Shown here: positions 1 to 17,814 of the stretch, in pieces
Layout: the number at the start of each line of letters is the position of its first letter
Numbering within the stretch: position 1 is the first letter of the stretch
IMG/VR virus record: IMGVR_UViG_3300038701_001348
Span: 1 to 45,932 of that record
Direction: 5' to 3' (one strand)
Source of the DNA: a virus
DNA: 45,932 bases
Program-made: the position numbers and the translations under genes
Notes under the pieces: generated by a model
Seen by the model: only the letters and a program-made list of their open reading frames with translations
The model's database searches: none
What the model was told of the DNA's origin: nothing

Positions 1-490
1 GGACGTTAGCATCTCGCATGGCATCATCGACAGACCGAGAAATTTGATCGAAGGATCGAGTCTTGTAGTCCTCAATCTGCTGCTCGGTATACACATCAGG
101 GTTTTGAAGCGTATCGGTAAGCGAGGATCTCAGCTCTCTGCCAAAGGGTGTATCCGACGGATCAGCCTTGAGCCCTTCAACCACGGTTTCATAATCAGGA
201 GAACGTCTACCGTGTTGACCCTGAAGCAGGCCAAGAGCGGCATCTCGATCAGCAAGTTGCTGTTCGCGAATACGCTCAGTATCCTCAAGCTGACGCTGGA
301 GAAGTGATCTTACGTTTGCACCGTAATCCTCACCGCCGACGGTACCGACATTTCCTCGGCTGCTAAGTCGCTGACCAACACCGCCACCCGTACCAAATCT
401 TGCTTGGTAGAGGGCTCTAACACTTCTGTTTGGGTGGTTTGTGGCACGGTTGACTACGCCAGGATGGTAGTCATTTGGGTTAAGCTGCAT
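1..490 (-). CDS. Internal virion-type coiled-coil protein, N-terminal part (continues at 45932-45250)
   Basis: The ATG at 490-488 overlaps the TAA of the upstream collar gene (TAATG) and the frame runs off the left contig edge. Across the end overlap it continues without a break to 45250, giving 347 codons. The first 60 residues are Gly- and Arg-rich (a GTGGGVG run). The rest is Gln-, Glu- and Ala-rich, predicted helical, with no signal peptide or membrane segment. It sits directly before two other large Gln- and Ala-rich proteins, a place where podoviruses encode proteins ejected with the DNA. That role is inferred from context and composition; I recognise no family. Confidence 0.8.
   Translation of the reverse strand, partial: MQLNPNDYHPGVVNRATNHPNRSVRALYQARFGTGGGVGQRLSSRGNVGTVGGEDYGANVRSLLQRQLEDTERIREQQLADRDAALGLLQGQHGRRSPDYETVVEGLKADPSDTPFGRELRSSLTDTLQNPDVYTEQQIEDYKTRSFDQISRSVDDAMRDANV
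2..127. repeat. Terminal direct repeat, left copy (contig end overlap)
   Basis: Bases 2-127 are identical to 45805-45930 (126 bp), with a mismatch on each side at the extreme contig ends. Joining the copies restores one in-frame gene on the minus strand, so the repeat is best read as an assembly overlap of a circular or circularly permuted genome of about 45803 bp. It is not likely to be a biological terminal repeat, because it lies inside a gene and is very short for packaging ends. Confidence 0.9.
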
Positions 491-807
491 TACGGCACCG
501 CCTTAATTATGTAATTGAACACCGTGCTTTCTCCACTTGTCTCATTCAGTGTGGGAACCTTAAAGGTATTCTCGTTATCCGGAGAGGGTGTACCCCCTCG
601 GGCTTCAATCGTTGTGGCAAGATCAGGATATGTTTGCACAGCATATGATGATCCGTCACACAGCAACCAACCAGAGGGGGCTAAGGCTCCGGACCATAAG
701 ACCATGGTTCCGACAGGCAGTAAGCCCCCTCGAAGTTCAGTAAGTCTACGATCAACGTCGTTGAACTCTTCATCAACTCGAGGATTTGTTTGTCTAAATC
801 TTCTCAT
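490..807 (-). CDS. Phage tail collar domain protein
   Basis: This 105-residue protein carries the tail collar fold found in short tail fibres. After a short polar N-terminus comes the typical stretch beginning near residue 32 (PVGTMVLWSG, then PSGWLLCDGSSY, then FKVPTL), and it ends with the expected hydrophobic FNYIIKA strand. The family usually sits at the base of fibre proteins and helps trimerise them or contact the tail. Here it is a free-standing small protein with no long fibre shaft. The ATG overlaps the stop of the propeller gene (ATGA), and its own stop overlaps the next start. Likely a minor tail or fibre-attachment protein. Confidence 0.85.
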   Translation of the reverse strand: MRRFRQTNPRVDEEFNDVDRRLTELRGGLLPVGTMVLWSGALAPSGWLLCDGSSYAVQTYPDLATTIEARGGTPSPDNENTFKVPTLNETSGESTVFNYIIKAVP

Positions 808-3023
808 CTACGACCAACCCCGCTTCCTTGTACGCTGAAACCATAGAGCTTAAACTCGTTTCTTATGTCAAAGCCCTCAATTTGAAGGGCAATGTAGTCC
901 GCTCTTGAGCCGACACGTATCTTGTGATTGTTTCTTGTGGGGTTTCTGAAATTGGATTTGATCACCCCAAACTCATCAATCTCAAAGCCAAAGTTTAGGT
1001 ATCGAAGGCCGCTACCAATTAAGTCCATAAATGCAGTGGCATAGTGTATCTTCATTGGTGAGCCCACTACAAAGGGGTTGAATCTCGTGGTAGTCCACCT
1101 AAAGTCTATACCCGCATTAAGATCCAGCCCCCGCTCAAAGATACCAAGCTTACCGTTCTTATCCACAAAGATGGCTCGTGGATTTCTCCCGGTACCGACA
1201 TAACCTCTGGTTAGAGAATCGACTGAAACATCCCAAGTGGTCCATCTGTGCACAGCATTGGGATCGTCAAGATTCTGCTTGAGGCTTTCACGGTAATTGT
1301 AACACAGTACGGTATCATTCTCAGTCTCACTTTCAAGGGATAGGCTTAGCAAGTACAAGCCAATCTCTTCATCGGAACCCGCGGTAGCATACGCCTTGCG
1401 AAGATCGGGCATATTCTCAAACAGTGGCTCAATTGCCATTGATATGTTGTGTGGAGCTCGTTCCGAGTTCCACGCATGTACCGCTTCGTCACTGAGCCAA
1501 AGCAGGTAGCCATCAACCTCAACAATTGTCTGATGAGCCACACAGCCAACACTCTGAGTGAGGGGTATGATTTGAAACTCGGGGTCTGACGGGTCACCAA
1601 TGGCAAGCCAAATTGACTTTTCCTTGAAGATAACGAGAATGCCATTATGGGATTTCATTCCCGTTATGTAGTCATCATCCCCTGCCTGACCGACGTAGAA
1701 CCAACTATTTACGCCCACCTGTTCAAGTTCATTAACCCCACTGTAATACACTCGAGTGGGATACTTGTCCCCGTTCTCAAGCTCTACGTTCCCATAGAAC
1801 ATCCTATTGCCACTAAACTCCACATGGTTAGCCACAGGAGGAACAATAATACTGAGGCGAGGAGCCAGAGTAAACAGGTTTTCATCGCCGCCAGTATCGT
1901 CAAACGTGTCCGTGCCGATAGCAATATCATCACTAACAAGATAGTGACGAGACTGCCCGCCGGCGACATTCCGTCGATATACCCTCCAGTATACCGCATT
2001 GTCTGGTACGGTGACTGAGTCTGGCTGCTCAACGGTATTAGTTGAACTTCCTCGGGTAGCTGATACGGGGGAGGATGGAGACTCATTTAAATCACCGTCA
2101 AGCCAGGTTACAACGTAGTCAAAGTCTGAGCCAGCATTTGCACCGTCAAAGGTGACGGTACCCGGAGCGGTAAGGCCAACTTCATTTATCTCAGTGCCCT
2201 GAACCTTAAGCATGGGTTTGATACCGGCAATGTAAAGCTGATTGTTTCCCTTCGTAAAGTCTGCTATGTTGTTTGGAAAAGCCGAGGGGTCGTTGATAAT
2301 AGGCTGGGGTGTGATGGGAGAAGTAAACTCTATAAGCTCATTAACCTCTCCCGTCCAGACTATCATATCCACATCTGCGTCAGCATCGTAGCCCGCGGGA
2401 ATAGTGTCTGACCAGAGGACGCTATCCATGTAACGCTCAAACCCGACCTCATTGGGGGTTGCATCGCCTGTGTTTGCATACCCCAGGCGTAGGGGAGCGT
2501 TGGGAGCCACGGCACCCGCATAGGTAGAATCCGTAAGGAGTACCCCATTAATCCAGTGTCTTACCTTACCGCTGGAATTACAGGACATCTCATAAATAAA
2601 CCACTTACCCAACTCAAGGGTAACATCACCACTGAAGTCATAACTAATATTATGGCGAACGGTGTCGGTGGTTTCAACGTAAAAAGTGAGTGTTGAAGTT
2701 TCAAGATTGATGAGTATGTGCCAGCGATCAGTAGCGGACTCTCGCCTACTGCACACTGCATATTCACCCTCTTTTACCGCCTGAATTTTGGCACGAAAAT
2801 ACACGGTATCACCGTTGCCAAAGTCAAACCCAGAAACATCATCAGCCTCAAGAAAGGTGTTAACCTCTCCATCAAACAGTCCGCAGGCATCCCCGTCGTA
2901 AAACTCAGAGGGATCAATAGCAACGCGACCAGCATTATTGCCAACATCGGTACCCATAGAAACCGTGTTGGCAAGACGCTCATCAGCATCGGTATTGAAT
3001 GTAATGTTGAGAATATCTGCCAT
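804..3023 (-). CDS. LamG domain plus tail propeller-type virion protein
   Basis: The 739 residues fall into two parts. Residues about 1-215 look like a concanavalin/LamG jelly roll (a GLFDGEVNTFLEADD stretch, later GKWFIYEM and an INGVL strand), a fold that often binds carbohydrate. From about residue 235 the sequence matches short-tailed phage tail-stabilisation or hub proteins of the propeller type: a TKGNNQLYIAG segment, then NRMFYGNVELENGDKYPTRV, then a GILVIFKEKSIWLA blade strand. The start is coupled by TAATG to the 89-residue gene upstream, which looks like the missing first blade. It probably closes the head-tail channel and may also contact the host surface. The exact tail role is inferred. 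Confidence 0.7.
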   Translation of the reverse strand: MADILNITFNTDADERLANTVSMGTDVGNNAGRVAIDPSEFYDGDACGLFDGEVNTFLEADDVSGFDFGNGDTVYFRAKIQAVKEGEYAVCSRRESATDRWHILINLETSTLTFYVETTDTVRHNISYDFSGDVTLELGKWFIYEMSCNSSGKVRHWINGVLLTDSTYAGAVAPNAPLRLGYANTGDATPNEVGFERYMDSVLWSDTIPAGYDADADVDMIVWTGEVNELIEFTSPITPQPIINDPSAFPNNIADFTKGNNQLYIAGIKPMLKVQGTEINEVGLTAPGTVTFDGANAGSDFDYVVTWLDGDLNESPSSPVSATRGSSTNTVEQPDSVTVPDNAVYWRVYRRNVAGGQSRHYLVSDDIAIGTDTFDDTGGDENLFTLAPRLSIIVPPVANHVEFSGNRMFYGNVELENGDKYPTRVYYSGVNELEQVGVNSWFYVGQAGDDDYITGMKSHNGILVIFKEKSIWLAIGDPSDPEFQIIPLTQSVGCVAHQTIVEVDGYLLWLSDEAVHAWNSERAPHNISMAIEPLFENMPDLRKAYATAGSDEEIGLYLLSLSLESETENDTVLCYNYRESLKQNLDDPNAVHRWTTWDVSVDSLTRGYVGTGRNPRAIFVDKNGKLGIFERGLDLNAGIDFRWTTTRFNPFVVGSPMKIHYATAFMDLIGSGLRYLNFGFEIDEFGVIKSNFRNPTRNNHKIRVGSRADYIALQIEGFDIRNEFKLYGFSVQGSGVGRR

Positions 3024-3292
3024 TACTTCTGCCTTTGAAAGACCCCTACTGTGGTTACAAACACTACGGAACGAATACTCTGATCAGGAGGAATATAGTT
3101 TGCTACACCCAACCCCTGTGTTGCCGTTCCTTGATTCTCCGCCAATTCCCTCCTACCCGGACGGATGACGACATTGCCAGCCTTAACATAACAGTTTACG
3201 GCTTCGGTTGCCTCCGACGGTCGTGAAGCGTACGAGCTATCCTCAAGCTGAAGCCCCACAAAATCGCCACGAAATACTCTTGGGTTTGGCAT
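3023..3292 (-). CDS. N-terminal segment of the tail propeller protein (separate ORF)
   Basis: This 89-residue protein has the sequence pattern that opens propeller-type tail proteins of podoviruses. Such proteins usually begin with a short segment listing the gene products as a membrane-free beta protein with an NCYV...VIRPGRREL motif, seen here at about residues 33-49. The usual continuation is found in the next gene downstream, after a LamG domain. The TAATG overlap at 3023-3025 would allow coupled translation of the two halves. I read this as the first blade of a split propeller. It could alternatively be a small independent virion protein. Confidence 0.7.
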   Translation of the reverse strand: MPNPRVFRGDFVGLQLEDSSYASRPSEATEAVNCYVKAGNVVIRPGRRELAENQGTATQGLGVANYIPPDQSIRSVVFVTTVGVFQRQK

Positions 3293-3933
3293 TAGTCACC
3301 CGCATACTCAATGTAGTCAGGCTTGTTACCCGCACGATTCTCAAGAAGCTTAGTAACCGACATTCTACGGTCACTCACTAAACGTTCTAATCCTCGAAAA
3401 TCACCATCCTCGGATACAACCCCGATCAATGCGGCCTCATAAGCGATAAGCCTGTGGGCCTGCGATGGGAGGCTCCAGCTTTCAGTGTCATCCTCAAGGT
3501 CCGCCAGTGTCTGCGTATATACCACATTGACAGTATGCTGCTCACCGTAGGGTGCGTAGTATTTAAGTTCGTTATTCTTAACAGCATACGCGGGTCTGTT
3601 ACGGCAATTGTTTTCGCCATACAAGTATCTGTACCGAGCAAACTCACCAATGTTAATTGGTTCAATTTCTCGGTTCTGGCTGTCACCCGTAATGGTGACA
3701 CTAATCACCCTATTGAGGTTATCTATAGTGCCGATGGATACAGCATCCCCACCCACGATGAAAGACATCTCGCTAAGAAGATACCCCTCGTCGAGGTTCT
3801 CAATCATATCCTGGACGCGAAGAGCCCCCTCATAGAGGAAGATATTTGATCGGGGATCGCTAAAGATATTCTCGTTGATTCCCTGATCGTCAATCAGGGA
3901 CCGAAACAATGCTCGTAACTCAGTTCGGTTCAT
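3292..3933 (-). CDS. Head-tail adaptor-like protein
   Basis: The 213 residues resemble the adaptor proteins that sit under the portal in SU10- and P22-type phages. The N-terminus has the ELRALFRSLIDD helix followed by a helix-rich region, then a beta segment with a YYAPYG turn, and a long C-terminal helix region. Position fits: it lies between the beta-sandwich repeat protein and the propeller protein in the tail block. No catalytic motif is visible. The ATG at 3933 overlaps the upstream stop (ATGA). The family call rests on length, helix pattern and context, so the precise connector role is a prediction. Confidence 0.55.
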   Translation of the reverse strand: MNRTELRALFRSLIDDQGINENIFSDPRSNIFLYEGALRVQDMIENLDEGYLLSEMSFIVGGDAVSIGTIDNLNRVISVTITGDSQNREIEPINIGEFARYRYLYGENNCRNRPAYAVKNNELKYYAPYGEQHTVNVVYTQTLADLEDDTESWSLPSQAHRLIAYEAALIGVVSEDGDFRGLERLVSDRRMSVTKLLENRAGNKPDYIEYAGD

Positions 3934-6900
3934 GGGTTAAGCCCCTGTGCATTATCAGGAAGGTCGGGTGCCGCGGATGTACGGGCTGACACGTTAACAT
4001 CAAAGGTTTGGCTAATATTGCCCGTGGCTTCAAACAATGAATCCAGTACAAAGTCCTGTTCGAGTACCAGAGTAACCTCTGTATCCTCCTCAAAAACCTT
4101 ACCAACTACTTCCGCGGTAACAGAATTATCGTTAATGCTGGTTATTCTGACCGTATGTCTTCCAGATACTTTGGCATCTGCATAGGCTGATCCTGAGCCA
4201 GCAACAACTGCCTTGTCAAAGTTTATCGTAAGTACAGTACCGGGATCATTCAAGACTGCACTATCAATTATAGGCGGAGCGGGTACTGGGACCAAGCTAT
4301 TGTTTTCGGCCTCAACAGCTGTTGCCACAGTGTTAGTCAGATTGTTGACAGGGTTTACAACTAACCCGGCCACAAGATCAATCAGTACCGTTTCACCCCT
4401 AAAGATGGTCTTATCCGATTGCATCAACAGTAGTGTCTGCTGCGTGGGTGTAACCTGTTTACGGGTGAGTACAATATCCTCACGCTGGGTAGCATACCCT
4501 GATCCTGATGTTGCTGGCCCAGCAGATATATCAACATCATAGTACACACCCACTGTTCTACCGTCGGTGTGGATGTAAATCTGCTGAATTGTGGGAGGGA
4601 GTTCAGATGGTTGTGGTACACCAATGGTAGAGTTGTTTGTTAACTCGGAATCCACGTTACTTACGTAAGGGCCTGACTCAGCGTTAGGTGTGCCCGTTGT
4701 TGAGCTCGTAACCACAGACGCTGGGATGCTAAGAGTAACTATTTCGCCATCGGATTCACGCTTTAACTTATCCCCGATAACCTGATAGGCAATCTCATCC
4801 CCGGAACCCGCACCGTCTTGGATAACACCATCTTCAAGACTTATGCCTCCCGTTACGGAACCGCTAATCGTGGGCTTTGCAGAGGATCGCTGTACCGTGA
4901 TTGGAGTGGCTGATCCATCATCCCAACGTATCCGAAGAAACTGATCCGCACCAACATCATATACTTCGGCCTCAACGATTGTCGGCGTAACATCCGCCGC
5001 TGGCTCATCTACAGTGGATTCATTGTCCACAACCTCAGGGGATTCTGCTTCAATGGCATCGACAAAGGCTAGGGCGTCCGCAAGGTCAGGGCCCGCTGAA
5101 GCGGCTGAAACCGCCCATCCCGACACCCCGTTGGAATGAAATACAACATCATCACCATCACCTGCACTAGGGGTATCCACACCAAAAATCAAGCCGCCAC
5201 CAGTAAGGCGAACAACAAGAGTATCATTAGTAATGGTATCAGTGTCAGAATCAATATCGAGAGTATCATCGACAGTGAAGGTTCTGTCGGGGGTTCCAGC
5301 ACTTATATCGGTGGCGATAACCGTTATATTATCAATGAGTGCTTGCTCAATGTTAAGGCCTTCGACATCAGTGGGTACTGACACAGCACGATCAAAGATA
5401 ATCTCAATGCGATCCCCTGAAGCAGGAATGTTAGAATCCAGCACCTCAGGGTTGGGAAAAGGAATATCTGAGTTGTTGGTTACTGCCCTGCCATTGTAGA
5501 CTACATGATCCTCAGTGACGGGAAACTTATTCTCAAACAATCCCGCTGGAATATCTGCGGTTACTGTATCGTAGTTTCTTACTGGATTCATCGGGTTAAT
5601 GTCGAAGATGGGTTGTTTATCCGTTCCAGGATCAACAAACGTACCCGAGAATGTGAGGTTTTGATTGGCCTCAGTAAAGTATTCGTTGGTGATCGCTATG
5701 TTTCCACCAACATAGGACACAGCAATGTCAAACGAAAGGCTCAACCGTTCTCCATCAGCAAGAACAGTCGCTCCCAAAAGAACGGGGGCGGGGGATGCTG
5801 CTCCCTCTTGGGAACCGACGGTTATTGATTCAAGAGCATTGGGGACTACAAGTTCATTCCCCGCTGCGGAATCATTGGGCGCCGCAGCATTCCTAACACG
5901 ATCAGCAAGAATAAACCCTATGGTAACTTCTTCACCCTCGTATACGGCACCAGAACTTAGCCTAAAGTTTGTAACCTTTGCTGAAGGCTGAGAGTCATAG
6001 TTGAATAGGGGAGTACCAAATTCATCCTCTACATTTTCATCTCTATTCCAAGTTATATTCCACCCTGAGCCGCCGTTCACAACAACAACATCAACATCCC
6101 AAAACAGCCTTATCGTTGTGGGGTTGATGAACTCAAACGCAAGCAATTCAGGCTTAGCAATAGTAGCATTGCCTTCAAGAACGGTTATAAAGGTAGCGTC
6201 ATCACAATCATATCTGGGGTGTGTGGACCAGTCTGAAGGCGTTTCTTGTACGGCTTCTGCTATCTCAAAGGTTCCAGCGGGGTAATCTACAAGTACTGTG
6301 TCGCCGGGGGTGAAGCTGTTAGGTGTTACCTGCGTAAAATCAGGGGCAAGAAATACCTGATTGCCGTTGATTATTTCACTGGATGCTGTTGCGTTTGTAG
6401 ACTGTCCATTGATGGTAATTTCAATGTCGGACCAGTTGGCCCCTGGAGCAAGTCTACAAGCACGCTCGCCTGAGAACTTAAACCTAATCTGGTCTATATC
6501 GTAGTAGATTGCCGGCTGAGCATCGGCTCCAGAGGGGACATCCTCAAGCTGAATATCAGTGGTTTCACCCGTGTAATTATCCACAAAGGTTACAGCCGTG
6601 CCATCACCCGTAGTAGTACTAGAAGGGCCCGTACCAGAAAAAGTACATATGCCCGACCTCCCTGAGGGAGCAGTTACTACAGGTGTAGTCCACTTGCAGC
6701 CATTGTTTTCATCTGGTGCCCACACGTTACTGATTTCATGGGATGAAATTGGTGGACTTGAAGCCTGTTCTACAGCACCACGAGTACCAAGAATCTTGAT
6801 GAGAGAGTGATCTGAGTCAGGCTCCCAGGGACCCCTTACAGCGGATATAAACCCAAACTGCATAGGCAGGCGATCGTTAATTCTATCGACATCAGCGGCG

Positions 6901-6974
6901 ACAAGAGTGCCACTTGCCCATGTAATATGGAGTCTGCCGTTCTTCTTTAACTCAAACTGTGTGGGGGTTGTCAC
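3930..6974 (-). CDS. Large beta-sandwich repeat virion protein (SwmB/Ig-like modules)
   Basis: This 1014-residue protein starts at a GTG (6974) with a GAGG ribosome site eight bases upstream. From about residue 270 it is a string of 100-130-residue modules beginning near 274, 395, 505, 655, 775 and 895. Each opens with a strand such as PELLAF, PVLLGA or PIIDSA, followed by a hydrophobic strand with an acidic turn (FDKAVV, YYDVDI, FWDVDV) and often a GSGY or GSGW loop. This resembles the SwmB-type Ig-like repeats of surface proteins. The first 250 residues are different and may be the attachment domain. It is probably a fibre or surface-decoration protein of the virion. No enzyme motif is seen. 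Confidence 0.55.
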   Translation of the reverse strand: MTTPTQFELKKNGRLHITWASGTLVAADVDRINDRLPMQFGFISAVRGPWEPDSDHSLIKILGTRGAVEQASSPPISSHEISNVWAPDENNGCKWTTPVVTAPSGRSGICTFSGTGPSSTTTGDGTAVTFVDNYTGETTDIQLEDVPSGADAQPAIYYDIDQIRFKFSGERACRLAPGANWSDIEITINGQSTNATASSEIINGNQVFLAPDFTQVTPNSFTPGDTVLVDYPAGTFEIAEAVQETPSDWSTHPRYDCDDATFITVLEGNATIAKPELLAFEFINPTTIRLFWDVDVVVVNGGSGWNITWNRDENVEDEFGTPLFNYDSQPSAKVTNFRLSSGAVYEGEEVTIGFILADRVRNAAAPNDSAAGNELVVPNALESITVGSQEGAASPAPVLLGATVLADGERLSLSFDIAVSYVGGNIAITNEYFTEANQNLTFSGTFVDPGTDKQPIFDINPMNPVRNYDTVTADIPAGLFENKFPVTEDHVVYNGRAVTNNSDIPFPNPEVLDSNIPASGDRIEIIFDRAVSVPTDVEGLNIEQALIDNITVIATDISAGTPDRTFTVDDTLDIDSDTDTITNDTLVVRLTGGGLIFGVDTPSAGDGDDVVFHSNGVSGWAVSAASAGPDLADALAFVDAIEAESPEVVDNESTVDEPAADVTPTIVEAEVYDVGADQFLRIRWDDGSATPITVQRSSAKPTISGSVTGGISLEDGVIQDGAGSGDEIAYQVIGDKLKRESDGEIVTLSIPASVVTSSTTGTPNAESGPYVSNVDSELTNNSTIGVPQPSELPPTIQQIYIHTDGRTVGVYYDVDISAGPATSGSGYATQREDIVLTRKQVTPTQQTLLLMQSDKTIFRGETVLIDLVAGLVVNPVNNLTNTVATAVEAENNSLVPVPAPPIIDSAVLNDPGTVLTINFDKAVVAGSGSAYADAKVSGRHTVRITSINDNSVTAEVVGKVFEEDTEVTLVLEQDFVLDSLFEATGNISQTFDVNVSARTSAAPDLPDNAQGLNP

Positions 6975-6976
6975 TA

Positions 6977-7339
6977 TTAATCCTCGGGAACGCTTGTCTC
7001 ACCCTGATCAATGTTTGCTTCGTAGCCGTACTGAACCTTGATTTCAGCATCATCAACACTGTTGGAATTGCCATCCGCGTAGATGTCCCAACCGCGGGGA
7101 GCAACGAGTTCCAGTCCAGGAATATCCACTGTACCCGAGGGTACGGATTCAAGCACCAGTGTGTTAGTGCCGTCTGAAGCCACAAGATCCCAGGCACCAC
7201 CTGCGGTACCACGAATCCGTCTTACAAGAGTTCTTCGATTTGCTTTGCCATCAATTATCTTAACGCCGCCAGAAGCACTTATATCCCCATCAGAGGGTCC
7301 AGGGGCTTCTGTCCAACCACGTCTATCTTGAAAAGGCAT
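6977..7339 (-). CDS. Small virion-operon protein, unknown
   Basis: The 120 residues are not recognised. The N-terminus is polar (DRRGWTEAPG), the middle has an arginine pair region (RRTLVRRIRG), and the rest is rich in short beta strands with an acidic tail. There is no signal peptide or membrane segment. The ATG overlaps the previous stop (TAATG), and the gene sits in a run of three small genes between the capsid block and the 1014-residue repeat protein. A small tail or decoration component is possible from position alone. Confidence 0.7.
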   Translation of the reverse strand: MPFQDRRGWTEAPGPSDGDISASGGVKIIDGKANRRTLVRRIRGTAGGAWDLVASDGTNTLVLESVPSGTVDIPGLELVAPRGWDIYADGNSNSVDDAEIKVQYGYEANIDQGETSVPED

Positions 7340-7683
7340 TATTGGCTCTCCGTTAATCTATGTTTCCAGTAAGAACCTAGAGGGGTACCCTCACTCGGTT
7401 CAACGTATTCTGATACCGTTGCTGTGCCCGTTGCACCTGTGCTAGCTTCATACGCTCCCAAGGCAGGCACGTCATCATCTAGCCCGTCCTCTTCATTCCA
7501 CCGCACTGATGCTGCCGCTGGCGACACATTATTGCTGATAGTGTAAATATTGGCAGCTAAATGAGCAATGAACCAACCACCTTCGACGTGTTCCCATGCA
7601 GACTTACCATTGATATCAGCTCTTGGAGCATACCTTCCAAGAGCTCCTGTTGGAGTAATGGTGCCTGTTACTTCAAGATCCAT
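7339..7683 (-). CDS. Small virion-operon protein with shared C-terminal tail
   Basis: The 114-residue protein has a TITPTGALGRYAP strand-turn start, an NGKSAWEH turn and a GGWFIAHL strand near residues 37-41. It looks like a compact beta protein of a kind often seen in phage fibre regions, where short modules display Asn-Gly and Trp turns. It ends in YWKHRLTES plus one residue, nearly the same tail as the upstream neighbour (WWRHKLTES plus one). The start overlaps that neighbour's stop by TAATG. No family name can be given with confidence. A surface or tail accessory role is likely. Confidence 0.65.
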   Translation of the reverse strand: MDLEVTGTITPTGALGRYAPRADINGKSAWEHVEGGWFIAHLAANIYTISNNVSPAAASVRWNEEDGLDDDVPALGAYEASTGATGTATVSEYVEPSEGTPLGSYWKHRLTESQ

Positions 7684-8318
7684 TACGCACTCTCCGTAAG
7701 CTTATGACGCCACCAAGTATTGTCTGGAGCCTCTGGCACAAAATGGTTTATGGTAAGTGTCATGTTTTTAGTCGCAGAATCAAAGCTTCCAACCTTGAGA
7801 GGGCGAGGTGAACCCCTATTCCCCTCGTCAGCAAGTCTGAAGCTCATACCGTTTCCCGAAGCCCAACTTTCTTGTCCCACAATTTCACGAACAATATCCC
7901 TAACGTCGATATTGAGTTCTACGCTGGAGGACTCAATGACATCAGTCACCACCTTGGTAGCTGCTGTAAGTGGGGAGCGAGAAGCGGGACCATCATTCGT
8001 GGAAAATACACCTGCGTTGGCCACCTTGTGCCCATGAACCCTTAGAAAGTATTCATAACCACCCCCGCCATCGTCCCAAAGGTCCAAGAGAGACACGTTC
8101 AATACCGCAGAGGATATGATGGATCCCGAGGGTATGGTGACATTAGAAAATCTTGCCCCTCCATAGTATACATCCTCACCATTACCGGGTCCAAAATCAA
8201 GCTGGATGTTTGAGGTGTTATTTGTGGTGAGAGTATAATTATATGTAGGATTTACAAAATCAGAGATCTCTTCAGCATCGTCAGCCGAAACTTGTAGGGT
8301 TAATGCAAGCTCAGTCAT
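7683..8318 (-). CDS. Jelly-roll (CBM96-like) virion protein
   Basis: The 211 residues look like a single beta jelly roll of the CBM96/disaggregatase-related type. Visible features are a RFSNVTIPSGSIISSA strand pair that introduces the roll, a VHGHKVANAG strand, a long strand with NIDVRDIVREIV, and the late GMSFRLADEG strand. Such modules bind polysaccharide or act as structural spacers on enzymes and phage fibres. No catalytic domain is attached. The ATG has an AGAGG site five bases upstream. The C-terminus WWRHKLTES recurs in the next gene, suggesting a common docking tail. Best guess: virion surface protein that contacts host glycans. Confidence 0.55.
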   Translation of the reverse strand: MTELALTLQVSADDAEEISDFVNPTYNYTLTTNNTSNIQLDFGPGNGEDVYYGGARFSNVTIPSGSIISSAVLNVSLLDLWDDGGGGYEYFLRVHGHKVANAGVFSTNDGPASRSPLTAATKVVTDVIESSSVELNIDVRDIVREIVGQESWASGNGMSFRLADEGNRGSPRPLKVGSFDSATKNMTLTINHFVPEAPDNTWWRHKLTESA

Positions 8319-8320
8319 GA

Positions 8321-8857
8321 TTACCTCTGTGAGGGGTCTGGAGTTGTTTCCCCAAGTTCAGTATAAATACTGTCCTCCCCGTAGGCCGCTACTGTTTCTG
8401 AATCTGACTTAAGCCCTTCCTTATTCAGCGAAAAATAATCCTGCGTTGCTGCAAGATCCTGCAACCTTCTGATTTCAGCCGGTGAACCCGTATACCACCA
8501 TACTAGGTTTGGAAATTGTTCAGTGGTATCATCCGCCACGATGATGAGGCAGGTATACTCGTGAGTGTTGTATGTATAAGTGATGGTCGCCCTATACTCT
8601 TCATCATCTTCAAGAGTACTATAGGCAACCATTCTAATCTTATCATTTTGAGCAAGCAGAGGTCTTAGGGTTGACCAATCAATCTGCTTGGATACAATGA
8701 TAATATCCTCAGGATACTTTTCTCCACGACGAACTGAGCCGGCAGTGGTAGCATTACTGTCCGTACCGTTGGCAACGATTACGCGAACAATTTCTGCTAC
8801 CGCTGAAGTGTACTCTTTATTCGCCAAGGGTAAAGTGTTTCCTGCCCCTGCCAACAT
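8321..8857 (-). CDS. DNA polymerase X-like nucleotidyltransferase, probably inactive
   Basis: The 178 residues align by eye with the palm and thumb of family X polymerases (Pol beta type). GSVRRG at residues 40-45 is the classical GSxRRG nucleotide-binding turn. Six residues later the first catalytic Asp is kept (D51), but the second carboxylate position reads Ile (I53). A WWYTGSPAEIRRLQDLA block matches the dNTP-binding YF-TGS helix, followed by the NKEGL and IYTELG pattern of the C-terminal end. The third catalytic Asp, expected about 17 residues before TGS, is also missing. It is half the size of a normal enzyme and lies in the virion operon. The ATG at 8857 overlaps the upstream gene by 41 bp; a TTG at 8827 is an alternative start. 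Confidence 0.7.
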   Translation of the reverse strand: MLAGAGNTLPLANKEYTSAVAEIVRVIVANGTDSNATTAGSVRRGEKYPEDIIIVSKQIDWSTLRPLLAQNDKIRMVAYSTLEDDEEYRATITYTYNTHEYTCLIIVADDTTEQFPNLVWWYTGSPAEIRRLQDLAATQDYFSLNKEGLKSDSETVAAYGEDSIYTELGETTPDPSQR

Positions 8858-9305
8858 ACCTTGAAACTTGTCTCGCGGTATACTGGCTTGCCTCTGTTAT
8901 TTGTTTTTGATACTTTTCAGCCCTGCGTTGATCGGCTTGGCTGTAAAGTTCAACCTGTTTCTTTGTAGCCTTTTCAGGCGTTTTAAGTCTCTTCCACATG
9001 TCGCATTCATTGAGGCAATCAATCAACCAGTCTCCTGGTAATGCAGGAACCGCATCCTTATACAGCTCAAACTGCTCCACCAGCCTATCCGTTGGCCTTA
9101 AAACAGACTCCTTTTTCGCCATAAACATGACGACGTAAGGCTTCTTTCCAACGGGATGAAAGGCATGAAGTTCAAGGTTACGATCAATGTCCAGAATGCG
9201 TTGCTTCAGAGTTTTACTAACGGAGGCAAGCCCCGTGAAAGGCTTGCTTCCATCCGGTATATCTCGTCTGAGGCATATTGATCTATGGCGGCAGCGATTC
9301 ATCAT
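8817..9305 (-). CDS. Virion-operon protein, unknown
   Basis: I chose the ATG at 9305 because it overlaps the TAA of the capsid-adjacent gene (TAATG), like most junctions in this operon; an in-frame codon at 9341 would give 12 more residues inside the upstream gene. The 161 residues begin with a basic stretch (CRHRSICLRRD), contain a VVMFMAKKES strand, a LPGDWLIDCL helix, and finish with a strongly charged helix rich in Gln, Arg and Lys that ends GRKHF. Such a tail suits nucleic acid or protein contact. No family is recognised. Its place after the capsid and decoration genes suggests head completion or an early tail step. Confidence 0.65.
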   Translation of the reverse strand: MMNRCRHRSICLRRDIPDGSKPFTGLASVSKTLKQRILDIDRNLELHAFHPVGKKPYVVMFMAKKESVLRPTDRLVEQFELYKDAVPALPGDWLIDCLNECDMWKRLKTPEKATKKQVELYSQADQRRAEKYQKQITEASQYTARQVSRYVGRGRKHFTLGE

Positions 9306-9808
9306 TATACCTTTACGGGAGAGTCCTCGAAAGCTTCCCATTCAACAAAGACAACGTAGGTACCCGCACCGGCGGAAACCGGGTGGGACATTGTTACCTC
9401 TGTAAAGGGAGGAATTTCCTGGTCAAAGTCAAACTCATAGCGATAACCAGCATCGAGCTCGGCCACTGCATCAAAGTCACCAGCGGCCAGCGGATTGCCA
9501 AGATTGTCATATGCACGATCCGCAGCGATCAAGGCAAGCGGCGTAGCCGTATAAGCATCAGGATCCGCTGTAACGGTACCGTTGCTTACAAGATACCCAA
9601 GATCAAGAGCGATATCGTTAGTGGCAAAGCCCTCAACGACAACAACCGTAACCTTCTTAAGTTTACCCTTGGAAGAGGCTGTTGAAAACACGTGCTGAAG
9701 TAGCGTCCCAGCCGACCCATCAGGATCACTCTTATCAATCACGACGGCACCCGACGACTCGATCCTGCGTCGAGTAGCTAAGCCCATCTGGTCAGTAACA
9801 ATAGGCAT
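9305..9808 (-). CDS. Capsid-adjacent virion protein, possible decoration protein
   Basis: The 167-residue protein is encoded directly downstream of the major capsid gene with a nine-base gap. It is beta-rich with an exposed acidic character, including the strand KKVTVVVVEG near residue 52 and a C-terminal YVVFVEWEAFE strand. There is no signal peptide or membrane helix. Position and fold pattern fit a head decoration or stabilisation protein, but there is no diagnostic motif. Its stop overlaps the next start. Confidence 0.6.
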   Translation of the reverse strand: MPIVTDQMGLATRRRIESSGAVVIDKSDPDGSAGTLLQHVFSTASSKGKLKKVTVVVVEGFATNDIALDLGYLVSNGTVTADPDAYTATPLALIAADRAYDNLGNPLAAGDFDAVAELDAGYRYEFDFDQEIPPFTEVTMSHPVSAGAGTYVVFVEWEAFEDSPVKV

Positions 9809-9817
9809 ACTAATTCC

Positions 9818-11086
9818 TTACGCAGCGTTAGCGGCACCGACGTTCTTGGCAACGATGCAATCCTTCGGATCGGTAATCGCACCCTCGCAGTACTTAAAGA
9901 TGGTCGCTTCGTACGCATCCTCGTTGGAGGAACGCGTAAGAACAGAACCATCACGATCCATCCAGTCCCAATCGCTCATATGGAGCATCTTGAGCCTGCT
10001 GGTATCCAGACCCCAAATGTGGTTGGGCTGGCAATCGCGATCCTTCACAACGGGAATACCCGAGTAATCGAGCATATCCCAGGCACCGTCCATCCTCTCG
10101 AAGCGAGTACCCGACGTGTTGAATCGACGATCGACAAGCAGACTGTTGGCGTATGCGTTGTAGATCTCGAAGGTAGTCATAAAGACATCGAGTTCGCCAT
10201 CACCCTCCTTGTCAACGGTGTCGATCATATCACGGAAGAGGCTATCTCCAAAGGCGGCGTTATTGTGGTCAATCTCGTTAGACTGCCAAAATTCAAAACC
10301 AGAGGTGTCACGATTGATTCCGCCGACATAGACACTGCCAATATTGTCAGGATTGTCGGCATTGACCATATCCTCAAGGCCCCAGGTTTCGAAACCCTGG
10401 TTGCCGAAGCGAACAACAAGGTCATCAGCCGCAACGGACTGTGCGTCAACGCTCGCAGTGCAAGTAACACGCCAGTATGTCGCACCCGAGGCACCCTGAA
10501 CACGGGCCACCGAGCTAATAACAAGAGCGGTGGAGTTACGAGCCGCAAGGCCAGACGGATTGTGGAACTGCAGTCGACGACCCTTCTGCAGGAATCTACC
10601 GTCAAGAGTAGCAAACTGGTTAACGGTAGTCGTAACACTATCAACGGTGTCGTCAGGGGCAATATCAACAGTGCAGAGCGTGCCTGCCTTGCCGCTAAAA
10701 GCCTGACGGTTCTGATCCCTAGCAAGGTCTCGGGTCATACCCTGAACCTCAGCATCGAGCACCTGTGCAAACGCACCATCATTCTCGCGTGATGCCGCGA
10801 TAGAGGGGCCACTAATCTTAATGGCACCGTACTGATACGTCATGTTGTACACAGCATTGTCATAACCCTGCTGCCCCGAGGTCGGAAGCGTACCGCCCTC
10901 GGCACGAGCACCAATACCCTCGTTGCGGCTAACATGCAGGGGAATATATGCCTGCTTACCGCTCGTGTATTCTGAGGTCTTCTCCATGATATGAAGAAGG
11001 AAGTTCTTGTTATTCAGTGTGTCGATGATAGGATCAAGATAATCAATCTTGAGAATGCTATCAATCGTTGTGGTGTCAGCAGACAT
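9818..11086 (-). CDS. Major capsid protein
   Basis: The 422 residues match HK97-fold capsid proteins of podo- and siphoviruses. The N-terminal arm carries DSILKIDYLDP, then NFLLHIMEK and the E-loop-like segment SGKQAYIPLHVSRNEGIGAR. The long spine helix follows (DGAFAQVLDAEVQGMTRDLA, about residues 106-125). Later come P-domain and A-domain strands, including a VFMTTFEIYNAY helix. It is preceded by scaffold and portal genes, the standard head module order. No separate protease gene is seen, so maturation cleavage is not evident. The ATG has an AAGGAG site upstream. Confidence 0.92.
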   Translation of the reverse strand: MSADTTTIDSILKIDYLDPIIDTLNNKNFLLHIMEKTSEYTSGKQAYIPLHVSRNEGIGARAEGGTLPTSGQQGYDNAVYNMTYQYGAIKISGPSIAASRENDGAFAQVLDAEVQGMTRDLARDQNRQAFSGKAGTLCTVDIAPDDTVDSVTTTVNQFATLDGRFLQKGRRLQFHNPSGLAARNSTALVISSVARVQGASGATYWRVTCTASVDAQSVAADDLVVRFGNQGFETWGLEDMVNADNPDNIGSVYVGGINRDTSGFEFWQSNEIDHNNAAFGDSLFRDMIDTVDKEGDGELDVFMTTFEIYNAYANSLLVDRRFNTSGTRFERMDGAWDMLDYSGIPVVKDRDCQPNHIWGLDTSRLKMLHMSDWDWMDRDGSVLTRSSNEDAYEATIFKYCEGAITDPKDCIVAKNVGAANAA

Positions 11087-11100
11087 TTACAAGTTTCTCC

Positions 11101-11841
11101 TTAAACGAAACCAGATTTCTTCGCAGTGTTACCCTGCGATCGTTGTTCACGTGCCGCCGCGAGACGCTCGCGAGTACGCTTCTTCAAATTACCGGACTTG
11201 AGATCCTTCATTGTCGCGGGCTCAATCTCGTCAGCGGCAGGGCCTGTTCCTTCGCCCATTCCGCTTACGCCCCGCGTTTCCTTAGCAGTTTTCTTTTTCT
11301 GCTCAATGTATTCCCTGTTTGCCTGGGTCTTACCCTCAGTGATGTTACTAATGGCTTCTTCAACGAGCTTGTCGATGGGCTTGTTAACGCCACGATAACG
11401 CTCGGCGATAACATGGTCCTGAATCATGCCGGAGAGCTTTTTGTTCTCCGCAATATTTTCATACCTGTTAATCGCCTCGCTAAGTTCTTGAGAAAGCTTT
11501 TCTTGCTTGCGTTCAAGGGCGGCATTACGCTCCTTGTTCGCCTGCTCCTGCTTCATTCTTTCGATCTTGGCGTCAACCTCCTCAACGGTAAGCTCCTTCT
11601 TCTCCTTTTCCTTTTCAGGCTCCTTCTTTTCGGTTTCCTGCTTAACGGTTGAGTAATCGGCCTTAAGCTTTTCCTCAACATAACTATTAAGCTCTGCTTC
11701 GCTCAACGCAATCTTTCTTCCGTCAGGAAGATTCTTGACGATCGTGCGAGGGTTGCCGTTATCATCGTAACCTCCCGGCGGATCCTCATTCTTTCTTGTG
11801 GGATCGTCAGGAATGTTCTTGTTTTCGGCGGACTGATTCAT
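11101..11841 (-). CDS. Capsid scaffolding protein
   Basis: This 246-residue protein is very charged and predicted to be almost wholly helical. The N-terminus is disordered and Pro- and Asn-rich. The centre (about 75-150) is a long Lys-, Glu- and Gln-rich coiled coil (KEPEKEKEKKELTVEEVDAK). The C-terminus is basic with many Arg and Lys (RTRERLAAAREQR). That composition, and its place between portal and major capsid genes, is typical of scaffold proteins, which bind capsid through a basic C-terminal helix and leave the head before packaging. The ATG follows an AAGGA site. Confidence 0.85.
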   Translation of the reverse strand: MNQSAENKNIPDDPTRKNEDPPGGYDDNGNPRTIVKNLPDGRKIALSEAELNSYVEEKLKADYSTVKQETEKKEPEKEKEKKELTVEEVDAKIERMKQEQANKERNAALERKQEKLSQELSEAINRYENIAENKKLSGMIQDHVIAERYRGVNKPIDKLVEEAISNITEGKTQANREYIEQKKKTAKETRGVSGMGEGTGPAADEIEPATMKDLKSGNLKKRTRERLAAAREQRSQGNTAKKSGFV

Positions 11842-11849: not shown

Positions 11850-11984
11850 TTAGTACTTGCGGGTGGGCTTGTCAGTCTTATTACACATGCCCTTACTGGT
11901 CTTAACCGGCTTGGACTTGGGCTTGTTGACGCTGATTTCCGAGTTGTGGCCGCTGTTGTTGCGGCCTCTGTCGCCCTTCTTCAT
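11850..11984 (-). CDS. Small basic protein nested at the portal 3' end (44 aa)
   Basis: An ATG at 11984 begins a 44-residue frame shifted relative to the portal, overlapping its last 83 bases and running on into the gap before the scaffold gene. A GAAGGG site lies just upstream. The product is Lys- and Arg-rich (starts MKKGDRGRNN, ends KPTRKY) with one Cys and no hydrophobic segment. Without this frame the gap between portal and scaffold would be empty. It is a plausible short virion or DNA-binding protein. The evidence is ORF position and composition only. Confidence 0.5.
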   Translation of the reverse strand: MKKGDRGRNNSGHNSEISVNKPKSKPVKTSKGMCNKTDKPTRKY

Positions 11985-14010
11985 TTGGCATCCCTTCGTT
12001 AGCTAAAGGGTTCTGTCGTGCCGCAACCGCTGCAGCAGCTCGAACCATAATCTCAGGTTTCACAAGCTCCATTGCCTGTGTTTGTTCGTGTTGCTCAAGG
12101 TGATTCATGAACAACGCTTTATCCTCAATCTCCATCCTGTCGAATCGAGCTGAGTTCATAAACTTCTTCAGCTCCTCAATGTGGACCTCATGATCGTGCC
12201 ATGTTTCAACACGAGGAGTAATTCCCTCGGACATCTGCCGGATCTCTTCCCATTGACGTGCTCTATGCACGCGGGAATCATCCATATGATCCTTTGCACT
12301 GCCAATATTTAGCAGCTTAAGGACGAGACGCTTATCCTTGGGGTCTTCTCTAGGATTAAAGATCCCGTCTTGAACAAGACCCTTTATCATCTCCTGCTGA
12401 GCAATACGGTTGTTAGGCATTCCAGAAACCGTACGCACTCTTACGTCGAGATAATCCACTCCGGGCAAGGTATTAGCTGTACCAAGAAGATCAGAACCCG
12501 TATAGGTAAACATTGCCAACTCATCATTAGAGCCTACTGCCTTGGCAAGACGCTCCTCGGTGATAAATTGTGCAGCAAGAGCGAGATTCTGACGTCCCAC
12601 TTCTTCGATGCTCAGCTGGAAGGCTTCCATTACGGGGCGGAATCGAGTCTCATCTGACTCAAGCAGAGCCATAATACCCTGTGAACCACGTAGCTGTCCC
12701 GTTGCCTGACCCTGAGATACCTCGTGAATACCCGCAATATCCTCCATATCCCTGCGATCATCGTCGAGCATTCGCTCGATGTACGAAGGCATGGGCGACG
12801 CCTGCATTGTCTCGGGTGCAAATCCCGGATTGTAGTGTACCTTCTCACCCGGTTCACTGGTTAATGCAGTGTTAGAGATGCCAGAACCCCGAGGAACCAG
12901 GAGTTTGGGGTTGCCAAGGAGGTTTCTGTTCTCAATCAGCTGACTCTTAGTACGGTTAAGCGACTGCTGCAGGGGTATAAGGTGCTCAAGAGACGACGCA
13001 CCCCATACTCTCCCGGGAACAGGGATCTCCTTCAGGTGTACATAGGGCAGCTTACGGTGCATGTAGGGGTGCTTTCCTGCGTGAAGCACCTCTTCGCCTG
13101 CAATCACCCCGAAGAATCCATGCTTTAGCCTCCCGCGGGCAAAGGGCTTTACCCAAAGCTCGTGAACGACGACCATATCTCCTTGCTCGTCGCCTCGATT
13201 ACCCCCAAAGGATAGGGGGTTAGTGCGTCTACCCTGCCCGGCGGGAAGCATTTTCTTAAGCTGCTCACCAAAGAAGCTATAGTTGGTCTGGCTTGACGTT
13301 GAACCCTTGCGGATCTTGTCAATGTTAACGCCGTCCCACTTTTCCTTGAGCTCCTCAACGTGAACGAGTCGGGACTCCATCGCCCATCTTGCATCCATGA
13401 AGTCTGAACAGTTGGGATCAATAAGTAAATCGAACCCTGAGACAACATGGGCCTCAATCTCGCCGATGGCAAGATCCTCATCGTACTCGAAGCCTATTTC
13501 ATCGTCGGGATTGGCCGACTGAAAGACCGGAGGGCCCCCGTCGGGATTCCAAACTTGCTTGATAAAAGCATTGCCAGTGGTGCAAACCCACCAGAGAGCC
13601 TGCATATATTTACGACGCATCTGCATCGTGTACCAATTGCTTGAAAGTACTTGGTTAGAGATCTCTGCCGTGAGTATATCGACAGAATCGTTGGTAGCAG
13701 GCAACACATCCCATACGGGAGGGTTGCCGTGCAGCTTCGCTGCAATTGTTCGGGCAAAGGGCATCAGATGATTTGTGGTCATCCGAGCCCGATAAGACGG
13801 TGCTGGAAGCTCACGCAGATTGTTGGCAAACTGGTCCCAGAAAAGATACTGGTGGCCATTGTACCAAGCAATATTCTGATACCACTGACGCTCAAGATAG
13901 TGCTTAAGTGAATCACGCAATCGCCATGCACCTTGCACGGCGGAGGCGATGCTGTCACTTTTATCAAAGTCAGCAGCTAGCAAGCTTGTGAATGCACGTC
14001 TACGTTTCAA
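11902..14010 (-). CDS. Portal protein
   Basis: The 702 residues have the layout of large podovirus portals. The N-terminus begins MKRRRAFTS, followed by the helical clip-like region with WYQNIAWYNGHQY, the wing strands near the TTNHLMPFARTIAAKL stretch (about 80-95), and a long C-terminal helix that ends Gln-rich. The gene starts at TTG (14010), overlapping the upstream TGA as TTGA, with an AGGAG site eight bases away. Portals form the dodecameric DNA channel at one vertex and nucleate the head. The Gln-rich C-terminus is coded over the small basic ORF. Confidence 0.9.
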   Translation of the reverse strand: MKRRRAFTSLLAADFDKSDSIASAVQGAWRLRDSLKHYLERQWYQNIAWYNGHQYLFWDQFANNLRELPAPSYRARMTTNHLMPFARTIAAKLHGNPPVWDVLPATNDSVDILTAEISNQVLSSNWYTMQMRRKYMQALWWVCTTGNAFIKQVWNPDGGPPVFQSANPDDEIGFEYDEDLAIGEIEAHVVSGFDLLIDPNCSDFMDARWAMESRLVHVEELKEKWDGVNIDKIRKGSTSSQTNYSFFGEQLKKMLPAGQGRRTNPLSFGGNRGDEQGDMVVVHELWVKPFARGRLKHGFFGVIAGEEVLHAGKHPYMHRKLPYVHLKEIPVPGRVWGASSLEHLIPLQQSLNRTKSQLIENRNLLGNPKLLVPRGSGISNTALTSEPGEKVHYNPGFAPETMQASPMPSYIERMLDDDRRDMEDIAGIHEVSQGQATGQLRGSQGIMALLESDETRFRPVMEAFQLSIEEVGRQNLALAAQFITEERLAKAVGSNDELAMFTYTGSDLLGTANTLPGVDYLDVRVRTVSGMPNNRIAQQEMIKGLVQDGIFNPREDPKDKRLVLKLLNIGSAKDHMDDSRVHRARQWEEIRQMSEGITPRVETWHDHEVHIEELKKFMNSARFDRMEIEDKALFMNHLEQHEQTQAMELVKPEIMVRAAAAVAARQNPLANEGMPNEEGRQRPQQQRPQLGNQRQQAQVQAG

Positions 14011-15321: not shown

Positions 15322-15676
15322 TTACCCTGACCTCCCGGGTCTTATCCTTCCAGAGGTTTGTGGGGTACTGCGGATTGCTGTGGTCAATAACATACAGCGT
15401 ACCGAGAGTTTGCGGAAGGAGAGCCTGTGTGGTATAACTGCAAGTGCCATTAATCACGAGCACATTGGTAAAACCAGCAAGCTCAAACTGAATGGCGTCG
15501 ACGTCAAAGCTAGGGGCACTGTTATTGAACGGAAACACGACTAGGAATAGTCTGTCTTTATTGTCCAAAAGTAGTGGCCGTATTTTGTCTAACGTACCCC
15601 TGGTAAGCTTGCCAGGAACAATTACGTCACACAATTCCGACGTACGTACTGATGGTGCCTTTGGTTCTGAGATCAT
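15314..15676 (-). CDS. Protein of unknown function downstream of the terminase
   Basis: I chose the ATG at 15676 because a GAAAGG site lies about eight bases before it; an in-frame upstream start at 15709 has none. The 120 residues have alternating strands and helices (LFLVVFPFN, then TNVLVINGTCSY, then GTLYVIDHSNPQ), which look like a small alpha/beta fold. No catalytic motif is recognised. It overlaps the terminase 3' end by 50 bp and is followed by the spanin-like pair. Confidence 0.6.
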   Translation of the reverse strand: MISEPKAPSVRTSELCDVIVPGKLTRGTLDKIRPLLLDNKDRLFLVVFPFNNSAPSFDVDAIQFELAGFTNVLVINGTCSYTTQALLPQTLGTLYVIDHSNPQYPTNLWKDKTREVRVID

Positions 15677-17309
15677 GGGCGTGCCTTTCAAGCTGATCTG
15701 CCATTGCATGAGTGCGTGAGAGTGTTACGTTATGGTTATTCATGTTTGCCCTGCGGTGAGGCTGCTCGCCTGAGAATATAGCCATCCCAAACATACAGAT
15801 ATATCTCCATATGTCCATCAGATGGTCTTCTTTGCGGACGGGTTCGGCCTTTGTTTCATTTGAGTTCGGGCCGCTGGTGTCCCTCTTGTAGCGATACTTA
15901 CGCCGTTCGCGGAAGAAGTTAAGTAGATTATGATCGACCTGAATGTGAGGCCGCCCGGTATTAGGGTTAATGCTGAGCAGTTTATTCACAGCCTGAATAC
16001 CCGATTGTATGTCATTATTGGCCGGACCACAAGGAGTGTCATAGAATGCGGCAAGCTGCTCCGCGACGCCCATCTGTCCCGCGTCGGACTTGCGAAAAGC
16101 CGCGGGATCAATTAGCCTGAGATAGAACTTCTCAGGGTTTTCTAAAAGGGGTCGTCTAGCATATACAGTAGACACGAGGGCGTTGTCTTCTCCGGGAAAT
16201 GAAGCCGCCGGGACGAGCTCATATCCCTCCGACTCCGCCATTGTCTCGGCCACCTTGTGCAGAGGGGTTTGCTCGAAGTAGTGTTCCCTGTAAAAGTAAA
16301 TCGTATGGTTGTAGGGGTCAATGGCACCATAGAGTACAGCATGAACTCTCCAACCGGGGTCGTTACCAGATATGAGGAGGAAGTCATCCGGAAAACCGTC
16401 AGGGAATTCTTTTTCAAAGTCGAAGATATGGGAAGAATTAAAGTCCGGATATGTAAGGCCGAAGGATCGGCGTGACTTTCCTTCAACACGTACGGCATAT
16501 TCCTCCGAAGTAAGACCCGCATAGATTTCATCCTTTGCTGCTTGAGGCAGGTGCTTAGAAGAGGCACTGTTTAGCTGAACAAGGCATACCGTAGGGTCGC
16601 CCTCATTGGCTCGATCCTCAAGATTCATTAACCACTCTTCAGAGCGAACCATCGTGGCCGAAACCGCAAGACGTCCGTCGTTATCGAGCAGCCGCATCTG
16701 CAGCTCTTGAAAGATACTTTCCGGGATCTCTTCGTCGATAATCGCAAGATCAACCGCCGCAGCCTGCATCTTCTTACGGGCTTGCTCACCGCCATCGCCG
16801 GAGATAAACCATATCTTGCTTATGTGCTCGGCTGAGTTACCAGCATGGGCTCCGTTTGGCGTATGGGACGCGTAAATATCAAGGTAGCTGGGTAACGGGA
16901 CACTAGCACCAGGAATCTTGGGTCCCTCTTTAGCTATCCATTTTGGGTCAACAAACTTCATTCCACCCTCGTTAGGGTGAAGGTGTCTGTATATACCCTG
17001 ATAGAGCGTGCGGTACTCGGCTGAGATTACATAGATCACCTTGGGGCCAGGAGGAATGATTTGAAAACGGTGACAACCGCGTGCCCACGCCGCCGCTTCG
17101 TAGGCCGTCATAACTGACTTACCAGCACGGTTGCCACCAAAGCCGATGCGATACCTTGCAGCCGAGGAATGGAACCTCATCTGATCTCGGTCAGGCGTCG
17201 CATCGGGGGTGTATAAGTTAATCGGAAGCGTAGCACGCCGCTGCTTCTCAAGCAACAGCTTTGCCTTTGTTTCCTGAAACTGTCTTCTAAGTTCTTGGGC
17301 TTCGGTCAC
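15627..17309 (-). CDS. terL: Terminase large subunit (DNA packaging ATPase and nuclease)
   Basis: The GTG at 17309 has an AGGAG site six bases upstream and gives 560 residues; an upstream ATG at 17393 would overlap the previous gene by 107 bp. The N-terminal ATPase has a Walker A motif GGNRAGKS (about residues 58-65) and a Walker B pattern VDLAIIDEEIP with the acidic pair. The C-terminal half carries the RNase H-like nuclease region, including VYDP-like strands and the ISGNDPGWRVHAVLYG stretch that begins the nuclease with a key Asp. It motors DNA into the prohead and cuts it. Gene order with portal, scaffold and capsid is standard. Confidence 0.93.
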   Translation of the reverse strand: MTEAQELRRQFQETKAKLLLEKQRRATLPINLYTPDATPDRDQMRFHSSAARYRIGFGGNRAGKSVMTAYEAAAWARGCHRFQIIPPGPKVIYVISAEYRTLYQGIYRHLHPNEGGMKFVDPKWIAKEGPKIPGASVPLPSYLDIYASHTPNGAHAGNSAEHISKIWFISGDGGEQARKKMQAAAVDLAIIDEEIPESIFQELQMRLLDNDGRLAVSATMVRSEEWLMNLEDRANEGDPTVCLVQLNSASSKHLPQAAKDEIYAGLTSEEYAVRVEGKSRRSFGLTYPDFNSSHIFDFEKEFPDGFPDDFLLISGNDPGWRVHAVLYGAIDPYNHTIYFYREHYFEQTPLHKVAETMAESEGYELVPAASFPGEDNALVSTVYARRPLLENPEKFYLRLIDPAAFRKSDAGQMGVAEQLAAFYDTPCGPANNDIQSGIQAVNKLLSINPNTGRPHIQVDHNLLNFFRERRKYRYKRDTSGPNSNETKAEPVRKEDHLMDIWRYICMFGMAIFSGEQPHRRANMNNHNVTLSRTHAMADQLERHAHDLRTKGTISTYVGIV

Positions 17310-17814
17310 GGACCTCTCCTGAGCTTCTCTTGCTAACTCTGGGGGCCCCGAGCCGAACGCCGGCTTGGGCGGGGTCAAACACCGGCTTTGCACATTCCGG
17401 AATTATTTGCCCGCGTTTTACCATCAAAAGATAGTTGTCTTCAGCAGCTCGCAGTTCGCCTTCGGATACTGGATTAGACTCGAGCTGCTTTATCTCTGCC
17501 TCTAATTGCTGAAGCGTATCCTCTAATGCATCGTCGGGCAGGCTGGACATATCCATGCTGACCTTGGGAGTATAGAACTCCTCGTGCTTCATCTCAAGCT
17601 GATCAATGCGTAGCAGGATACTTGTTGCTTGCAACCTGTGTTCTGTCTTTACGCCTGTGTCTTCCTGGGTTTTGTGTAAAAATTGAACCATATCGTTGCG
17701 AACATCGGATGACAGTTTACGGTAACGCGATATGCCATGCTTATTAATCATAGGCAGATCGTTTACCGTGAAACGGCTGATGTTATCGGGTTGTGCTACG
17801 CGATCTTTGTTCAT
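17287..17814 (-). CDS. Putative terminase small subunit
   Basis: The ATG at 17814 starts a 175-residue protein; a TTG three codons earlier is possible. An N-terminal region with basic and polar residues (INKHGISRYRKLSSDVRND) is followed by helices with HKTQEDTGVKTEHRLQA and a charged C-terminal coiled coil (LQQLEAEIKQLE). Its place immediately before the large terminase, and its helix-rich, DNA-binding-like composition, fit a small terminase that recognises the packaging site. The motif evidence is weak. It is the first gene of the minus-strand late operon and faces the divergent control region. Confidence 0.55.
   Translation of the reverse strand: MNKDRVAQPDNISRFTVNDLPMINKHGISRYRKLSSDVRNDMVQFLHKTQEDTGVKTEHRLQATSILLRIDQLEMKHEEFYTPKVSMDMSSLPDDALEDTLQQLEAEIKQLESNPVSEGELRAAEDNYLLMVKRGQIIPECAKPVFDPAQAGVRLGAPRVSKRSSGEVRDRSPRT

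Follow-up and report, generated by a model that had tools for sequence, protein, structure and literature searches.

Among the late-operon products of a P22/SU10-type podovirus is a small protein that by sequence and predicted fold is a well-established member of the family X DNA polymerase (PolX) lineage, and I put at roughly 50% the probability that it is a PolX-derived pseudoenzyme with a non-catalytic role in virion assembly or structure, perhaps together with its neighbour gp8817. The window analysed is the whole of virus record IMGVR_UViG_3300038701_001348 (45,932 nucleotides), and the protein, P0001, is the 178-residue product of a minus-strand ORF (8857..8321) with an ATG start. The observation itself is real and no artefact. 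A little short of even odds, and so put forward tentatively, is the broader proposition that a PolX palm and thumb became a structural or assembly component of the phage particle with no enzymatic role, its synteny kept and its active site erased.

That P0001 has a Pol beta-type palm and thumb, as the original prediction held, is borne out by profile comparison. A Pfam-A search matches residues 120-178 to DNA_pol_B_thumb (PF14791) with E 1.8e-5 and a score, 25 bits, that just equals the curated cut-off. A leave-one-out profile of 32 PolX-like viral sequences, P0001 left out, scores it at 32.0 bits (E 2.4e-8), whereas the highest of 5000 shuffles of P0001 run against the same profile reaches 7.7 bits; the subset profile of 'classic' PolX gives 32.4 bits and that of the 'GDIEIV' sequences only 14.2. 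These relatives were assembled by collecting phage PolX proteins first and then using their alignments to pull more viral relatives from IMG/VR. In profile-profile comparison, hhalign reports a probability of 95% against classic short PolX. The residues that align with phage PolX are G40-S41-x-R43-R44, D51, T123-G124-S125 and G148-L149, and further E161, L168-G169, P175 and R178. Single-sequence searches of phages, plasmids and viral_contigs returned no close relative of P0001; matches to a Dolichospermum phage, Miltoncostaea and Azotobacter were at chance level (E 0.3-0.9) and were rejected. PHROGs gave no match, and a phmmer search of the PDB with the single sequence returned mostly ankyrin-repeat noise, which was discarded. 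Searching the PDB with the relatives' alignment does lead to PolX, through a profile dominated by the relatives and not by P0001.

The structure prediction that had been suggested as a check yields a PolX palm. The AlphaFold2 model, for which the alignment of PolX relatives was supplied, has a pLDDT of 86.5 and a pTM of 0.80, and Foldseek finds matches for it in Pol lambda (E 7e-11, query TM of about 0.7-0.8) and in viral PolX proteins. The model thus makes a family X palm plus thumb, with the landmarks of the family and no other domain, a well-supported prediction. With Pol beta, Pol lambda and bacterial PolX the protein has in common the palm, the C-terminal thumb (also called fingers) and the landmarks GSxRR, TGS, GL and E..I...LG..P..R; unlike them it has neither an 8-kDa nor a PHP domain, is acidic and is encoded in a virion operon. 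According to alignment and model, an N-L-V-W run (residues 117-120) lies in the helix leading from palm to thumb.

The active site of P0001 departs from that of these enzymes. Its catalytic triad reads D51-I53-I106, so that the second Asp is Ile and the third is missing, both as predicted; position 3 is aliphatic whether it is read as I106 or, under HMM gap placement, as L104, and the stretch bounded by E100 and D109 (residues 101-108) is free of acids. Among the 32 relatives an acid is kept at position 1 in 32/32, at position 2 in 31/32 and at position 3 in 30/32. P0001 thus does not have all three of the acidic metal ligands (DxD ... D) of an enzyme. It keeps GSVRR and TGS intact, yet the residues read off the alignment at what I take to be the equivalents of Pol beta N279 and R283 are I129 and Q133. 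The Pol beta numbering comes in part from PMC9226535, and, according to the same paper, characterised PolX that lose triad acids have no activity or far less of it. Judged on these residues, two-metal nucleotidyl transfer by P0001 appears very unlikely, and loss of catalysis is well supported.

About 27.5% of prokaryotic PolX have altered triads but keep PHP exonuclease function (PMC9226535; PMC12926913). These noncanonical proteins resemble P0001 in their substituted triad and altered dNTP-binding site, but they work as nucleases and still have the 8-kDa and PHP exonuclease domains, whereas P0001 has neither domain (PMC9226535). The 174-residue PolX of African swine fever virus, an active gap-filling polymerase (PMC5330486), matches P0001 in its small size and in consisting of palm plus C-terminal domain only, but P0001 is without the catalytic residues. 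Closest in sequence are short phage PolX proteins (e.g. L018, L025, L054, L062), which are like P0001 in size (160-210 residues) and domains but have acidic triads, DDD or DED with a few carrying Asn, and named neighbours mostly in DNA metabolism.

The original prediction had also remarked on the small size. P0001 is indeed about half the size of Pol beta (335 residues), but its length is common among phage and viral PolX, and the idea that shortness is a sign of reuse was dropped: dozens of uncultured phages have ORFs of 160-210 codons that encode palm and thumb only. Most of these keep an acidic triad and lie close to DNA-metabolism genes, the classic DDD form being represented by L018, L021 and L026. 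A large group from uncultured phages (L050-L080, L029-L031), on contigs mostly of about 28-48 kb, has the signature AGSxRRxxPEVGDIEIVCIP and Glu for the second Asp; tblastn of INPHARED with one member found no match. Short PolX is almost absent from PHROGs (one weak match among 33 sequences scanned). Neighbours with named PHROGs are mainly DNA methyltransferases, SSB, helicase loader, HNH endonucleases and replication proteins, in counts pooled over neighbours that are a tally and not a map. Other variants were seen along the way. Four short phage proteins (L038, L042, L045, L047) keep the first two Asp and have Asn for the third (RP[IV]NIF); a 170-residue jumbo-phage PolX (L017, 6001-6510) has Asn for the second, as also in LR756500 (427517-427909), a reference record with a second PolX-like place; and a 902-residue protein with an internal PolX palm and thumb (L020, 5446-8151) adjoins a gene for an archaeal-type PolD large subunit. 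In L049 (503-2824; contig shared with L028, IMGVR_UViG_3300023284_000188) a ClpP-type head maturation protease (phrog_94, E 1e-56) carries at its N-terminus a fused PolX palm whose triad is intact and whose thumb is short, and scaffold-like and then major head protein genes follow 3'. This fusion is like P0001 in tying a PolX palm to head morphogenesis genes; it differs in its fused form and its intact triad, and the two are not closely related.

In the window, P0001 is encoded among capsid and tail genes, as had been noted, with TerL, portal and major capsid protein (MCP) upstream and adaptor, nozzle-like protein and tail collar downstream (Table 1). The late operon runs on a single strand with overlapping genes or short gaps, and it is distinct from the replication block, a separate plus-strand block that carries a family A polymerase. 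Directly upstream of P0001, the 3' end of the gp8817 gene overlaps its start by 41 nt; the true start of gp8817 may be an ATG near 9303. P0001 has a pI of 4.4 and a net charge of -13, the most acidic in the set compared. A single-sequence scan of viral_contigs with the MCP gave no match. Elsewhere in the window, a degenerate tandem array of AGCGGC/TACGGC-like units of 12-42 bases (23510-23775) lies just upstream of a gene at 23807, an apparently ParB-like protein (22043-23131) is encoded in the plus-strand block, and a 1319-residue, probably internal or ejected virion protein (40146-44105) has the zinc-peptidase motif HEIGH at residue 705. The adjacent products gp7683 and gp7339 end in WWRHKLTES and YWKHRLTES.

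A scan with a portal alignment yielded 80 podovirus loci, and one of them, L081 (IMGVR_UViG_3300031991_000022), is far closer to the window than the rest, with orthologs from TerL through to the tail side (Table 1). Between its gp8817 and gp6977 orthologs L081 has a single ORF (9889-10398; 166-169 residues); its probable ATG start and the stop of gp8817 overlap in ATGA. Over 142 residues the product shares 23% identity with P0001 (BLASTP E 7e-4), its local score (z 6.6) is matched by 1/5000 shuffles, and it ranks first against P0001 among the ORFs of 100-260 residues from all 80 loci. Its triad is S-V-T, with no acid left, and the dNTP contacts have gone further too, GSxRR having become SEIKR and TGS TET. 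An AlphaFold2 model (pLDDT 82.5) shows the elements in the same order as P0001 and leads Foldseek to Pol lambda (E 1e-10), in a run that used the PolX alignment and is biased towards that fold. PolX profiles alone miss this protein (its score is inside the shuffle range), so its membership of the family runs via P0001 and synteny. The residues common to both proteins are mostly at hydrophobic or turn positions, plus the N-L-V-W run. The PolX-like protein and gp8817 are complementary in charge, with -13 and +15 in the window and more weakly, with -3 and +6, in L081. Portal relatives other than L081 among the 80 loci have no recognisable P0001 homolog; scans with gp8817 and TerL for more relatives found only the L081 contig, and genome_contigs nothing. 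A late-operon place with conserved synteny, the pattern of a virion or assembly protein, is thus seen in the window and L081 only. There is moderate evidence, from sequence and models, that the gene has been kept in L081 with further erosion of the active site. L081 also shows the gene to be inside a shared block, and its placement in a variable cassette was dropped.

Table 1. Late-operon features of the window, with identity to the orthologs in L081.
Feature	Coordinates	Strand	Basis or remark	L081 ortholog
Tail collar domain protein	490..807	-		
Nozzle/head-closure-like virion protein (gp804)	804..3023	-		35%
Head-tail adaptor, SU10_adaptor-like (gp3292)	3292..3933	-	just under Pfam cut-off	33%
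1014-aa acidic repeat-rich protein, putative tail fibre/decoration (gp3930)	3930..6974	-		32%
120-aa protein gp6977	6977..7339	-	L081 ortholog directly 3' of PolX-like gene	27%
114-aa protein (gp7339)	7339..7683	-	C-terminal W-[RK]-H-[KR]-LTES motif common with gp7683	no match
211-aa protein, probable spike/adhesin (gp7683)	7683..8318	-	weak DNRLRE-domain similarity	no match
P0001, putative PolX-derived pseudoenzyme, palm plus thumb	8321..8857	-	Pfam, profile, AF2, Foldseek	23%
gp8817, basic protein, pI 9.9, charge +15	8817..9341	-		38%
167-aa acidic protein adjoining MCP, putatively decoration-like	9305..9808	-	position only	
Major capsid protein	9818..11086	-	phrog_14242 E 1e-59; SU10_MCP weak	43%
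Probable scaffold	11101..11841	-	position only	
Portal protein	11902..14010	-	SU10_portal E 2e-18, P22_portal	42%
Terminase large subunit (TerL)	15627..17393	-		46%

How might such a gene have come about? The ancestor of P0001 would have been a short phage family X DNA polymerase of palm plus thumb, whose gene arrived in the late operon of an ancestral podovirus lineage between gp8817 and the tail or fibre genes. Metal binding and catalysis would then have disappeared from that lineage, along with, in one branch or more, the triphosphate pocket; fold and gene position would have been kept throughout the erosion. Because the gene has been kept in place while the metal ligands and then the triphosphate contacts vanished, the fold, rather than catalysis or nucleotide binding, appears to be what selection acts on. 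The present job of P0001 would be as a protein-protein part of assembly or of the particle, perhaps with its basic, translationally coupled neighbour gp8817; such a role is favoured by gene position, the gp8817 overlap and membership of a block common to both phages. Both this role and the pairing with gp8817 are my inference, and presence in the particle is read from gene order only. Late operons carry non-structural genes too.

P0001 might instead act outside the particle, as a late accessory protein that imitates the PolX fold as an inhibitor or decoy, possibly of a host nucleotidyltransferase, a repair polymerase or nucleotide-signalling defence. The branches of P0001 and its L081 homolog in the PolX tree are very long, at 5.0 and 6.3 where the median is 0.8, which fits release from catalytic constraint and also an arms-race protein. 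The 23% identity between the two, against 27-46% for the other listed genes in common, indicates fast divergence, and the MCP-adaptor stretch, in which P0001 is encoded, holds variable genes (spikes, esterases, lysins) in other related podoviruses. However, P0001 is in the block shared with L081 and not in the variable insert (gp7683, gp7339), its gene overlaps gp8817 in both phages, and a non-exhaustive search matched no known anti-defence family; I regard an accessory role as rather unlikely. P0001 might also be a functionless, decaying remnant of a formerly active short PolX. Eroded active sites in both phages are what decay would produce, but ORFs of 178 and 166-169 codons remain intact, place and gene overlap are the same although the terminases are only 46% identical, and P0001-L081 similarity is far above shuffles, which makes decay improbable.

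Two further readings keep a chemical role for the old site. The original prediction had allowed for a nucleotide-sensing or DNA-end-binding part, and with G40-S41, R44, D51 and TGS still present, P0001 might bind nucleotide, polyphosphate or a DNA end in the particle through GSxRR and D51. Erosion in L081, where SEIKR, Ser and TET stand at GSxRR, D51 and TGS, argues against enzyme and nucleotide-sensor roles alike; I129 and Q133 speak against nucleotide contacts in P0001 itself, and its acidity argues against DNA-end binding. This is unlikely too, if by a shade less so than decay. Thus, of the predicted reuse, the PolX fold, loss of catalysis and operon setting hold up, whereas nucleotide sensing and DNA-end binding are weakened. 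An unconventional active nucleotidyltransferase with displaced acids (e.g. D84, D85, D109, D110) is hardly credible: D109 and D110 lie close to where the third palm strand ends, but the L081 homolog has no acids at those two positions, and the effect of triad-acid loss in characterised PolX (PMC9226535) weighs against it.

I prefer the non-catalytic assembly or structural part, and the syntenic, further-eroded L081 homolog makes P0001 more interesting than the size argument did. I found no report in the open literature of PolX as a phage virion part, which does not prove that none exists. Dead PolX proteins described to date retain a second catalytic domain, the PHP exonuclease, and among short viral PolX the best known works actively in repair. 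If the preferred reading is true, a stand-alone PolX fold without a catalytic site, kept in a virion operon across large distances in sequence, would be a polymerase fold that has gone over to structural or regulatory work. Together with the independent L049 fusion of PolX and protease, P0001 poses the question: Why are there PolX domains in phage head modules?
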